Below are positions 10,493-13,468 of a DNA stretch of 38,161 nt, piece by piece. Numbering within the stretch: the first letter of the stretch is position 1; each line of letters starts with the position of its first letter. The notes beneath the pieces are model-generated. The model made no database searches. It saw only the letters and a list, made by a program, of their open reading frames with translations, and had not been told where the DNA came from. This DNA is from Myxococcales bacterium (GTDB lineage Bacteria; Myxococcota_A; Polyangia; Haliangiales; Haliangiaceae), in assembly GCA_005779305.1 (NCBI GenBank), contig SXJR01000088.1, forward strand, positions 1-38,161, given 5' to 3'. A program made the translations under genes and the position numbers.

Positions 10493-10602
10493 GGCGGTAC
10501 CATAGCCGGATCGCCGCCTCTCGCAGGGGTACGCTACGGGTACGAAATTCGGTGTCGCGGGCGGCGTCCGCGGAGGCGCCACGAGACGCTTCGGAGGTGA
10601 CG

Positions 10603-12102
10603 ATGAGACGGTTTCACGGTAGAGCTTCGCGATGGCGACGGCGACGGAACGGATCGAGCGAGTCGGCCGCTGTGCCGGTCACGCCGGTTCTCCAGCTGGA
10701 TCGCCGTGGGTTCCTCGGCGGTAGCGCGCGCATGGGGCTCCTGGTCGCGCTCGCCGGCTGTTCAGGTGGCGGGAGCGGCGCCGGCAGCGGTACCGGCACC
10801 GGCGGCGGTACCGGGCGCGTGCCCTCGCCCCGTGGTGGCCGGCGGGTGATCGTCATTGGCGCCGGCGTCGCCGGGCTGGCCGCCGCGCGAGACCTCAGCC
10901 GGAGCGGTCACGAGGTCATCGTGCTCGAGGCGCGCGATCGACTCGGTGGCCGGGTCTGGACCGATCGATCGTTCGGCATCCCGATCGAGATGGGCGCCAA
11001 CTGGATCGAGGGCGCCGACGACAACCCGGTGCGCGCGATCGCCGACGAGGCCGGCCTGGCCCACACCCCGTCGGACTTCGATGACGTCGCGCTCTACGAT
11101 CACCGGGGGCGCCCCGTGTCGGCGGCGGACGCCCGCGAGCTCGACCGCGATCGTGACGAGCTCGTCGCCGAGGTCGAAGCGCTGAGCGAGACGCTCGACG
11201 AGGACATCTCGGTGCGCGCGGCGATCGACCGCGTGCTCGCCGGCGAGCGGCCCGACGCCGACGAGACCCGGGCGCTGCGGTGGATCGAGTCGATCCTCCT
11301 CACCGCCACGGCCGAGGATCTCGATCGGCTCTCGCTGCTCGCCTTCGAGGAAGACGAGTCCTACGCCGGCGAGGACCACCTGGTCGTCCCCGGCTACGAC
11401 GGCGTGCCGGCGTTCCTGGCGCGCGGCCTCGACATCCGCCTGGATCAGATCGTCACGCGCATCGCCCACGACGAGCGCGGCGTCGAGGTCGTGACGGCCG
11501 GCAGCACGCTCACCGCCGATCGGGCAGTGGTGACCCTACCGCTGGGCGTGCTCAAGGCTGGGACCGTCGAGTTCTCACCGGCCCTGCCGGCCGCCAAACA
11601 AGAGGCCATCCGCCGGCTCGGCTTCGGCGTGCTCGACAAGATCGTGATGGAGTTCCCGTCGGCGTTCTGGCCACCGGATCGTCACTTCGTCTCGTGCATC
11701 ACCGGTGAGCCGAACGACCCGCCCACCTTCCTCGATCTGCGCCGTGTCCACCAGAAGCCGGTGCTGGTCGGGTTCATCGGCGGCAGCGCGGCGCGGCGGC
11801 TGTACCCGATGGACGACGCCGCCGCCGCCGCGCTGGCCATGTCCACGCTCCGCCGGGTGTGGCCGAAGGCGCCCACGCCCAGCCGCGTCCGCGTGACCCG
11901 GTGGGGCGCTGACCGCTTCGCGCTCGGCTCGTACTCTCACATCGTCGTCGACGGGACCGCCGACGATCACGATCGCCTCGCCGAACCAGTCGCGGGCCGC
12001 CTGTTCTTCGCCGGCGAGGCCACGCACCGCCGCTTCCCCGGCACGGTCCACGGCGCGCTCCTCTCCGGCATCCGCGCCGCCGAGGCCGTGGCTGCTGCCT
12101 GA
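10603..12102 (+). CDS. Exported flavin amine oxidase, Tat-type lipoprotein
   Basis: A 499-residue FAD-dependent amine oxidase (monoamine/polyamine oxidase superfamily), which would oxidise an amine to an aldehyde or imine with release of peroxide. The FAD-binding site VIGAGVAGLAAARDL (from about 84) and LEARDRLGGRVW are intact, followed by GANWIEG, and the C-terminal FAD motif LFFAGEATHRRFPGTVHGA is present. The N-terminus has a twin-arginine-like DRRGFLGG, a hydrophobic stretch and a lipobox (LAGC), then a Gly/Ser-rich linker, so it is probably exported folded by Tat and lipid-anchored. The start at 10603 is fixed by a strong GGAGG at 10593-10597, five bases upstream. An earlier in-frame ATG at 10552 is less likely. 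The amine substrate is unknown. Peroxide from this enzyme could be a reason for a neighbouring peroxiredoxin (inference). Confidence 0.9.
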   Translation: MRRFHGRASRWRRRRNGSSESAAVPVTPVLQLDRRGFLGGSARMGLLVALAGCSGGGSGAGSGTGTGGGTGRVPSPRGGRRVIVIGAGVAGLAAARDLSRSGHEVIVLEARDRLGGRVWTDRSFGIPIEMGANWIEGADDNPVRAIADEAGLAHTPSDFDDVALYDHRGRPVSAADARELDRDRDELVAEVEALSETLDEDISVRAAIDRVLAGERPDADETRALRWIESILLTATAEDLDRLSLLAFEEDESYAGEDHLVVPGYDGVPAFLARGLDIRLDQIVTRIAHDERGVEVVTAGSTLTADRAVVTLPLGVLKAGTVEFSPALPAAKQEAIRRLGFGVLDKIVMEFPSAFWPPDRHFVSCITGEPNDPPTFLDLRRVHQKPVLVGFIGGSAARRLYPMDDAAAAALAMSTLRRVWPKAPTPSRVRVTRWGADRFALGSYSHIVVDGTADDHDRLAEPVAGRLFFAGEATHRRFPGTVHGALLSGIRAAEAVAAA

Positions 12103-12420
12103 GCTGCGACCAGCGATAGTCGGCTCGGACACGGGGAGATCTCGCGTCGTGGTTCCGTGTGTCGGGACGCGAGGCGTGACGGAGCCGTCCAACGCGCTGC
12201 GGCATCTCTTCCCGCCGGCCGGCGCGCCGGAGCGGCGGCGAGCACCGATTCGCTCGGCGCCGCTGAAGCCTCCGGCAGCGACCTCCCGCTCGGCTGGCTC
12301 GGCGGCGGCGATGGAGGTGCCATCACGCCCCCGTGGAGAAGGCCGCGCCCGAAGTCCCGGCCGTGCGAAGCGTCGCGCAACGGCCTGATCGTCGAGCACC
12401 GTTGCTGCTAGAGTGAGGCA
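12103..12420. other. 318-base gap, no supported gene
   Basis: Frames are open on both strands here, as is common in very GC-rich DNA, but none has a ribosome site or a recognisable domain. The last bases (GAGG at 12415-12418) may be the ribosome site of the peroxiredoxin, though the two-base spacing to its ATG is short. The promoter for that gene presumably lies here, but I see no clear -35/-10 pair. Confidence 0.5.
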
Positions 12421-12864
12421 ATGCGGCCCGGCGTCGGTGATCTCGCTCCTGACTTCACGCTCCCCGCGCACGACGGATCGATCGTCACGCTGGCCGAGTT
12501 CGCCGGATCGTACGTGCTGCTCTGGTACTTCCCGATGGCCGACACCCCGGGTTGAACGCGCCAGGGCAACGGGCTCCGTGATCGAGCCCGCGACTTCGCC
12601 GCGAAGAACTGCGTCATCCTCGGCATCAGCTTCGACTCGATCGATGCCAACCGCGCCTTCGTCGAGAAGTTCGCGTACCCGTACCGCCTCCTGTGCGACC
12701 CGCAGCGGACCACCGGCACCGCCTATGATGTCGACGACCCGACCGATCCCGGCTATGCCCTCCGCGTCTCGTTCCTCGTCGGACCGGACCGCCGGATCGT
12801 GAAGGTCTACGACGTGAAGGACGCCGCCGGGCACGCCGCCGACGTGCTCGCCGACCTGCCCTGA
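12421..12864 (+). CDS. Selenocysteine-containing peroxiredoxin (TGA at codon 45 read as Sec)
   Basis: Translating through one in-frame TGA gives a complete 147-residue AhpC/TSA-type peroxiredoxin of the BCP/PrxQ kind. It starts MRPGVGDLAPDFTLPAHDG, continues with VLLWYFPMADTPG, and ends at a normal TGA (12862-12864). The internal TGA (12553-12555) is exactly where the family has its peroxidatic cysteine (TPG-C-T), giving TPG-U-TRQGNGLRD. Downstream motifs remain in frame and intact (VILGISFDS, FPYRLL-like AYPYRLLCD, SFLVGPDRRIVKVYDV). There is no cysteine five residues after the Sec, so it resembles the 1-Cys arrangement. A 7-bp hairpin with a G-U-containing loop follows the TGA at bacterial-SECIS distance. 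It lies 10 bases upstream of a methyltransferase gene. The alternative is a TGC-to-TGA nonsense mutation. The perfect position, intact remainder and hairpin make selenoprotein the better reading; the Sec machinery genes are not in the window. Confidence 0.85.
12570..12590 (+). promoter_or_regulatory. Bacterial SECIS-like hairpin in the peroxiredoxin reading frame
   Basis: A perfect 7-bp stem, CGGGCUC (12570-12576) with GAGCCCG (12584-12590), encloses the 7-base loop CGUGAUC. The loop has G-U at its second and third positions, the feature that SelB-type factors recognise in bacterial SECIS apical loops. From the end of the TGA (12555) to that G (12578) there are 22 bases, within the range seen for bacterial SECIS elements and slightly longer than in E. 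coli fdhF. The hairpin lies inside coding sequence, as expected for bacteria. Confidence 0.75.
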
Positions 12865-12874
12865 CCCGGATGCG

Positions 12875-13468
12875 ATGACGATGAAGCAGTACGCGCCCGC
12901 GACCCAGCGCAACCGCGAGCCGATCCGCGAGGTGCTCGCGCGCGAGCTGCCGGCCAGCGGCCTGGTGCTCGAGATCGCGAGCGGCAGCGGCGAGCACGCG
13001 GTCGAGTTCGCGCGGGCATTTCCCGGTGTCACGTGGCAGCCGAGCGATCCGGACGAGCCGGCGCTGGCGAGCATCGAGGCGTGGCGCGCGGAGGCAGCGC
13101 TGCCCAACCTGGCGGCGCCGGTGAAGCTCGATGTCATCGCGCCGTGGCCCGACGTGCAGGCGGACGCGCTCGTGTGCATCAACATGGTTCACATCGCGCC
13201 GTGGGAGGCCGCGCTCGCGCTGTTCGCCGGCGCCGGCCGCGTGCTCGCGCCCGGTGCGCTGCTCTTCCTCTACGGGCCGTATCGGTTCGGCGGCGCGTTC
13301 TCGGCGCCGTCGAACCAGGCCTTCGATGCGTCGCTGCGCGCGCGGGATCCGCGCTGGGGCGTGCGCGATGTCGACGATCTGCGCGCGGCCGCCGACGCGC
13401 AGGGCCTTCAGCTGCGCGACACCGTGGCGCTGCCGGCCAACAACCACGCGCTCGTCTTTCGCCGCTGA
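12875..13468 (+). CDS. DUF938 family SAM-dependent methyltransferase
   Basis: A 197-residue protein matching the DUF938 group of class I methyltransferases: it starts with the family-typical region (KQYAPATQRNREPI), then motif I LEIASGSGEHAVEFA, an acidic residue in PSDPDEPALASI, and the characteristic INMVHIAPWEA. The C-terminus (ANNHALVFRR) is also family-like. The substrate of DUF938 proteins is not established. It starts 10 bases after the selenoperoxiredoxin, so the two are probably co-transcribed. Two in-frame ATGs (12875 and 12881) lie close together; the first is used. Confidence 0.9.
   Translation: MTMKQYAPATQRNREPIREVLARELPASGLVLEIASGSGEHAVEFARAFPGVTWQPSDPDEPALASIEAWRAEAALPNLAAPVKLDVIAPWPDVQADALVCINMVHIAPWEAALALFAGAGRVLAPGALLFLYGPYRFGGAFSAPSNQAFDASLRARDPRWGVRDVDDLRAAADAQGLQLRDTVALPANNHALVFRR

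Follow-up and report, generated by a model that had tools for sequence, protein, structure and literature searches.

A probable selenocysteine peroxiredoxin of the BCP/PrxQ type in a Myxococcales bacterium and the SECIS hairpins of its relatives

The gene at 12421-12864 of the window (the whole 38,161-nucleotide stretch of Myxococcales bacterium contig SXJR01000088.1, assembly GCA_005779305.1, analyzed here) almost certainly encodes a BCP/PrxQ-like peroxiredoxin in which selenocysteine (Sec) takes the place of the peroxidatic cysteine. The frame, the codon, the motif, the Sec machinery and the covariation of the hairpin are each visible in the sequences compared. The reading restores a gene that would be split by ordinary annotation, and very probably the lineage of the window uses selenium in a peroxiredoxin. 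The features are as follows.

12421..12864, + strand: Sec peroxiredoxin gene (BCP/PrxQ-like), 147 residues plus stop with one in-frame TGA, assigned by frame, domain and fold
12553..12555, + strand: TGA read as Sec, residue 45, at the peroxidatic position of PxxxTxxU
12570..12590, + strand: SECIS-like hairpin, register A, 7-bp stem and 7-nt loop CGUGAUC, assigned by pairing excess and covariation
12862..12864, + strand: TGA, ordinary stop codon of the peroxiredoxin gene, assigned by frame reading

Results

A single frame with TGA at the peroxidatic codon

With the TGA translated as Sec (U), 12421-12864 gives a single 147-residue frame, MRPGVGD...DTPGUTRQGNGLRDRA...LADLP. An earlier reading made from the sequence only had proposed that both halves flanking the codon are intact, and the read-through protein is one AhpC-TSA domain spanning residues 5-128 (104.9 bits, cut-off 26). 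That sequence-only reading had also placed the TGA at the peroxidatic Cys codon, and the alignments agree: Cys homologues have TGC or TGT at the aligned codon, and relatives have TGA. A TGA in place of a redox Cys that homologues retain is a mark of bacterial selenoproteins, and the AhpC-TSA domain with PxxxTxxC/U plus an Arg places the protein in the BCP/PrxQ branch. P38, T42, residue 45 and R115 are invariant in 13 aligned rows, these being the window and 12 of the 17 loci found in the contig scan described below. An AlphaFold2 model, run with Cys at residue 45, had a mean pLDDT of 96.7, and its top solved matches in Foldseek were BCP, PrxQ and AhpE-type peroxiredoxins.

Directly downstream, 12875-13468 encodes a DUF938 methyltransferase-like protein (255.6 bits) that was not found in the loci of relatives. 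No conserved operon was seen, as none of four neighboring window proteins had a match at E <= 1e-8 in those loci (flanks of 3 kb or less), and a promoter and terminator scan of 12050-12960 found nothing.

Selenocysteine machinery of the host genome

The sequence-only reading implied that the organism makes Sec, and the genome (8.08 Mb, 611 contigs, 75% complete) was found to contain selA, selB, selC and selD, with selB recognized by a wing domain only. SelA was matched at E 3e-138. The SelB match spans this one wing domain in a 685-residue frame, and SelD (L016:1474-2580) has an in-frame TGA of its own, in GGGU. One tRNA-Sec (selC) match with anticodon TCA lies above the Rfam cut-off.

Two further candidate selenoprotein genes were seen. 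The first is SelW-like (L068, G000:C167:45888-46094) with the TGA in CQAU and a score of 40.9 bits, above the cut-off, and the second is Prx-like (L069, G000:C66:13394-13681) with the motif FGUIHC and a score of 24.9 bits, slightly below the cut-off of 26. Among 15 AhpC-TSA matches in the genome only two, the window gene and the FGUIHC gene, contain a TGA. Formate dehydrogenase was rejected as a selenoprotein of this genome, since none of its 18 matches was above the cut-off or had an internal TGA.

That several genes of the genome have an in-frame TGA would also fit a changed genetic code that assigns TGA to an ordinary residue, such as Cys or Trp, with no Sec inserted. We give this explanation next to no weight: TGA terminates the peroxiredoxin gene and likewise its two neighbors (10552-12102 and 12875-13468), the in-frame TGAs lie at redox positions of families published as selenoproteins, and tRNA-Sec, SelA, SelB and SelD are present.

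TGA and Cys forms among relatives

The distribution of the gene across the order is patchy. A match at E <= 1e-25 was found in 14 of 35 genomes (the window's own included), 11 with one TGA and 3 without. In the class, 25 of the 317 genomes searched gave 26 places with E <= 1e-28. Seven of these lack a TGA. The other 19, spread over 18 genomes, have exactly one, and without exception it occupies the catalytic codon (16 rows, the other 3 duplicating named records). The scan of contigs gave 17 loci with TGA at the aligned codon in four (L018, L019, L020 and L032) and TGC or TGT in 12, the remaining locus, L034, stopping short of that codon. The comparison set consisted of 41 loci from which three duplicates were dropped to leave 38 rows, 20 with TGA and 18 with Cys; L033, L034 and the genome's own paralogues were excluded.

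The sequence-only reading had named close relatives with TGC and no hairpin as a pattern that would make the codon a nonsense mutation. The opposite was found: close relatives keep the TGA and the hairpin, and the closest, 80% identical, has the same TGA.

SelA (E <= 1e-60) was found in 18/18 class genomes having the TGA form and in 4/7 having the Cys form only, an association that taken alone is modest because 30 of the 35 genomes in the order contain SelA regardless of which peroxiredoxin they have.

Three observations concern individual loci. L035, from the same-genus genome G023, equals L018 (the Myxococcales bacterium UBA2376 record) in the DNA around the codon, so the window lies close to that organism. 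Genome G060 contains two Sec peroxiredoxin copies, L048 and L059, the latter identical to L020 around the codon. Outside the studied group, L032:3001-3312 (SAR202 cluster MAG JASMDM010000022.1) encodes a peroxiredoxin, FTGGUTHQ, with TGA at the catalytic codon; its genome contains SelA, and no hairpin was found at L032 by the SECIS rules used.

The SECIS hairpin, alone and across relatives

The 7-bp stem with a G-U loop that had been reported at SECIS distance is present. CGGGCTC (12570-12576) and GAGCCCG (12584-12590) enclose the loop CGTGATC (12577-12583), which begins 21 nt past the TGA and has G-U at loop positions 2-3, and the calculated energy is -12.0 kcal/mol. The hairpin satisfies the rules given in the Fig. 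2 legend of PMC13188914 (loop of 3-9 nt, stem of 4-16 bp, energy at most -7.5, G among the first two loop bases and 16-37 nt from the UGA), which we applied with our own script rather than with bSECISearch.

Taken alone, the window hairpin gives weak evidence. Its surroundings have an ordinary folding energy (z -0.64 versus shuffles and z -0.64 versus synonymous codon redraws), and in the window, which is rich in G+C, the same rules are satisfied by 45 of 783 TGA trinucleotides (5.7%; both strands, any frame) and by 66 of 1270 TGC trinucleotides. Single-sequence folding was therefore rejected as proof of a SECIS element, and it is the comparison across relatives that makes the case.

Among the 38 rows the SECIS rules are satisfied by 16 of the 20 with TGA versus one of the 18 with Cys (L056); the homologues thus show the U/C alternation that the sequence-only reading had proposed to look for, rather than a nonsense mutation. 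The strict rules were missed by the TGA rows L020, L032, L039 and L048, three of which have only a 6-bp form of the stem described next as A, whose energy of -5.2 kcal/mol does not reach the required -7.5.

The hairpins occur in two registers that overlap in one orthologous gene. Register A is found in 13 rows, the window included, with the full 7 pairs in nine; the stem is (C)GGGCUC/GAGCCC(G) or (C)GGAUUC/GAAUCC(G) and the loop is mostly CGUGAUC or CGUGACC. Register B is found in 6 rows as GGUUGCGG-GUU-CCGCGACC or close to it, with 8/8 pairs in all six, and relative to A it starts 5 nt, and has its loop 4 nt, nearer the TGA. We take register B to resemble the E. coli fdhF element.

When codons were redrawn synonymously with the protein kept, pairing was in excess in both registers. 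Register A had 87 of 91 paired cells versus 64.9 +/- 2.9 expected and register B had 48 of 48 versus 39.1 +/- 2.0, and 0/5000 redraws reached the observed pairing of either, although these figures are not true probabilities because the stems were defined on these very rows, which are related to one another. The 18 Cys rows gave no excess (A, 33/126 versus 34.4; B, 63/144 versus 60.2). Pairing reaches 95.6% of cells in the 13 A rows, versus 86.1% in shuffles and 4-55% when the stem is slid, and the covariation score was 0.344 versus 0.175 (0/500 as high). Neither the double-change pairs (3; as high in 130/500 shuffles) nor the further pair types (4; as high in 499/500) stand out in these rows.

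These data bear on the explanation that a Cys peroxiredoxin gene was killed by a TGC-to-TGA nonsense mutation or only appears so through a sequencing error. TGC and TGA are one base apart, and the genome is a 611-contig draft that holds a single copy with the sequence of the window gene. Nevertheless, one group has 19 distinct rows, counting that of the window, with TGA at the same codon, down to 41% identity to the window, the downstream half of the gene is conserved, the hairpin is kept through double changes, and the conserved TGA and hairpin are seen in independent assemblies. We consider such a mutation or error highly improbable. Nonsense mutation, sequencing error and a changed code were all rejected on the conserved TGA, the hairpin, the Sec machinery and the use of TGA as stop.

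Predicted chemistry of the Sec enzyme

Sec incorporation, peroxidase activity and the reductant are inferred from the features above. In the proposed mechanism SelA and SelD would make Sec-tRNA(Sec), and SelB would bind the hairpin downstream of the TGA and bring Sec to the UGA at 12553. Pro38, Thr42 and Arg115 would hold the selenolate of Sec45, which would then attack peroxide to give a selenenic acid. The +5 and helix alpha-3 positions, which we take to be those of resolving Cys residues, are Asn50 and Val81 in the window protein, whereas some relatives carry Cys there (L022-L025 at the alpha-3 position). Because neither position is filled, reduction of the selenenic acid would fall to an outside thiol, with Cys64 or Cys92 as less likely candidates; both residues exist in the window protein, and Cys92 is not kept in all relatives. 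Asn50 and Val81 thus point to a 1-Sec form as most likely, and the enzyme is probably a "1-Sec" peroxidase that depends on an outside thiol for its reduction. Its family and fold suggest a use in peroxide defense.

An alternative is that Sec is inserted into a protein whose main role is not that of a peroxidase but, for instance, that of a redox sensor or disulfide reductase. This would fit the lack of a resolving Cys at either position considered, and no conserved neighbor gene reveals the role. Note that a resolving Cys is not needed in every 1-Cys enzyme. The full peroxiredoxin catalytic set of the protein (P38, T42, U45 and R115) and its peroxiredoxin fold, which resembles those of BCP and AhpE (the latter a 1-Cys peroxiredoxin according to the entry titles), make a mainly non-peroxidase role unlikely and argue for the peroxidase.

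Discussion

Relation to known peroxiredoxins

Sec-peroxiredoxins are an already described family, and the window gene belongs to a known type. Entries for Sec Prx (COG1225/Bcp, TxxU) stand in the bacterial selenoproteome catalogues of PMC1794560, PMC5029168, PMC9312934 and PMC13188914, with 78 organisms and 91 proteins given in PMC5029168, three proteins of Anaeromyxobacter dehalogenans in PMC1794560 and 43 Sargasso Sea genes in PMC1088965. As in those entries, the window gene has a TGA at the peroxidatic codon of PxxxTxxU, the AhpC-TSA domain and a SECIS downstream. It differs in that its protein is without the +5 Cys, and neither the pair of SECIS registers nor the occurrence of Cys forms within the Sec group was found in the portions of those catalogues available to us. 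Our literature search found no paper on myxobacterial selenoproteins with SECIS elements.

The BCP/PrxQ thiol peroxidases, such as Xanthomonas campestris PrxQ and Sulfolobus Bcp1, share fold, catalytic set and length with the window protein, which in contrast has Sec instead of Cys and lacks the resolving Cys at both positions considered. Its two best NCBIfam matches, thioredoxin-dependent thiol peroxidase (86.4 bits, cut-off 140) and PrxQ (85.7 bits, cut-off 260), fall below their cut-offs, and thus the protein is a relative rather than a member of those models. The match to a third bacterial peroxiredoxin model, PrxU (NF040737), is weak (36 bits versus a cut-off of 270) and the window protein is not of the PrxU subfamily; the model is presumably linked to the Sec peroxiredoxin from Eubacterium acidaminophilum (Sohling 2001). 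Mycobacterium tuberculosis AhpE is a one-Cys peroxiredoxin of similar fold, although it is a Cys enzyme of another subfamily.

Changes between Sec and Cys

A tree was built of 35 rows, L029, L031 and L032 being left out of the 38. It unites 19 Sec rows and 4 Cys rows in one group (95/97). The whole tree needs five U/C changes, three of them forced by well-supported branches, and four changes (two forced) lie inside the Sec group. Because the hairpins are common to the Sec rows, it is simpler to suppose that Sec came first and that Cys returned later, which suggests that the Cys forms within the group are Sec-to-Cys reversions, on a tree whose root and several branches are weak. The Prx events in the table of Zhang 2006 (PMC1794560) are zero Sec-to-Cys and five Cys-to-Sec, and the portion of a 2026 review available to us describes Sec-to-Cys change as a rare event that is confined mainly to FdhA and SelD (PMC13188914). 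Against these reports the putative reversions would therefore be a modest addition.

None of the four Cys rows of the group (L021, L043, L044 and L052, in that order below) satisfies the SECIS rules. Stem A is broken in all four, with 3, 2, 3 and 3 of its 7 pairs left, and stem B retains 7, 4, 6 and 6 of its 8 pairs. In L021 the B-type stem is thus nearly whole (7/8), with a changed loop, and it may be a remnant SECIS; Cys forms derived from selenoproteins can keep remnant SECIS-like structures, as stated in Zhang 2006 (PMC1794560).

Across the rows compared, SECIS evolution is unusually clear in this group. Sec forms with two hairpin registers, together with Cys forms, make a natural series that bears on the origin and movement of SECIS elements and the constraint they put on protein sequence, and on whether Sec-to-Cys reversion in peroxiredoxins is commoner than the reviews state.

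Hairpin register and the residues beside the active site

There is about an even chance that the SECIS moved between the overlapping registers A and B, that this move was linked to a change from a Sec-Cys to a 1-Sec enzyme, and that pairing makes residues 52 and 56 switch together. If so, RNA structure would steer protein chemistry beside the active site. At the +5 position (residue 50) Cys occurs in 5 of 6 B rows and in 0 of 13 A rows, and the TGC codon of this Cys sits within stem B. One change on the tree separates the registers, with weak support (57/69, 56% of bootstrap trees), so the association of register with the +5 Cys may be one event only; the register change itself may be a single event, in either direction.

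In the register A rows residues 52/56 are Leu/Ala in five and Phe/Ile in eight, with no mixed row, and hairpin pairing is kept by the double changes. The coupling arises because the third base of codon 51 pairs with the second of codon 56 and the first base of codon 52 pairs with the first of codon 56. The A rows need four 52/56 switches on the tree (bootstrap range 3-4), of which well-supported branches alone force one. The other 10 rows of the group have FA (3), FI (3), FV (1), FR (1), FG (1) and LG (1), and Phe/Ile is still found at 52/56 in two of the four Cys rows.
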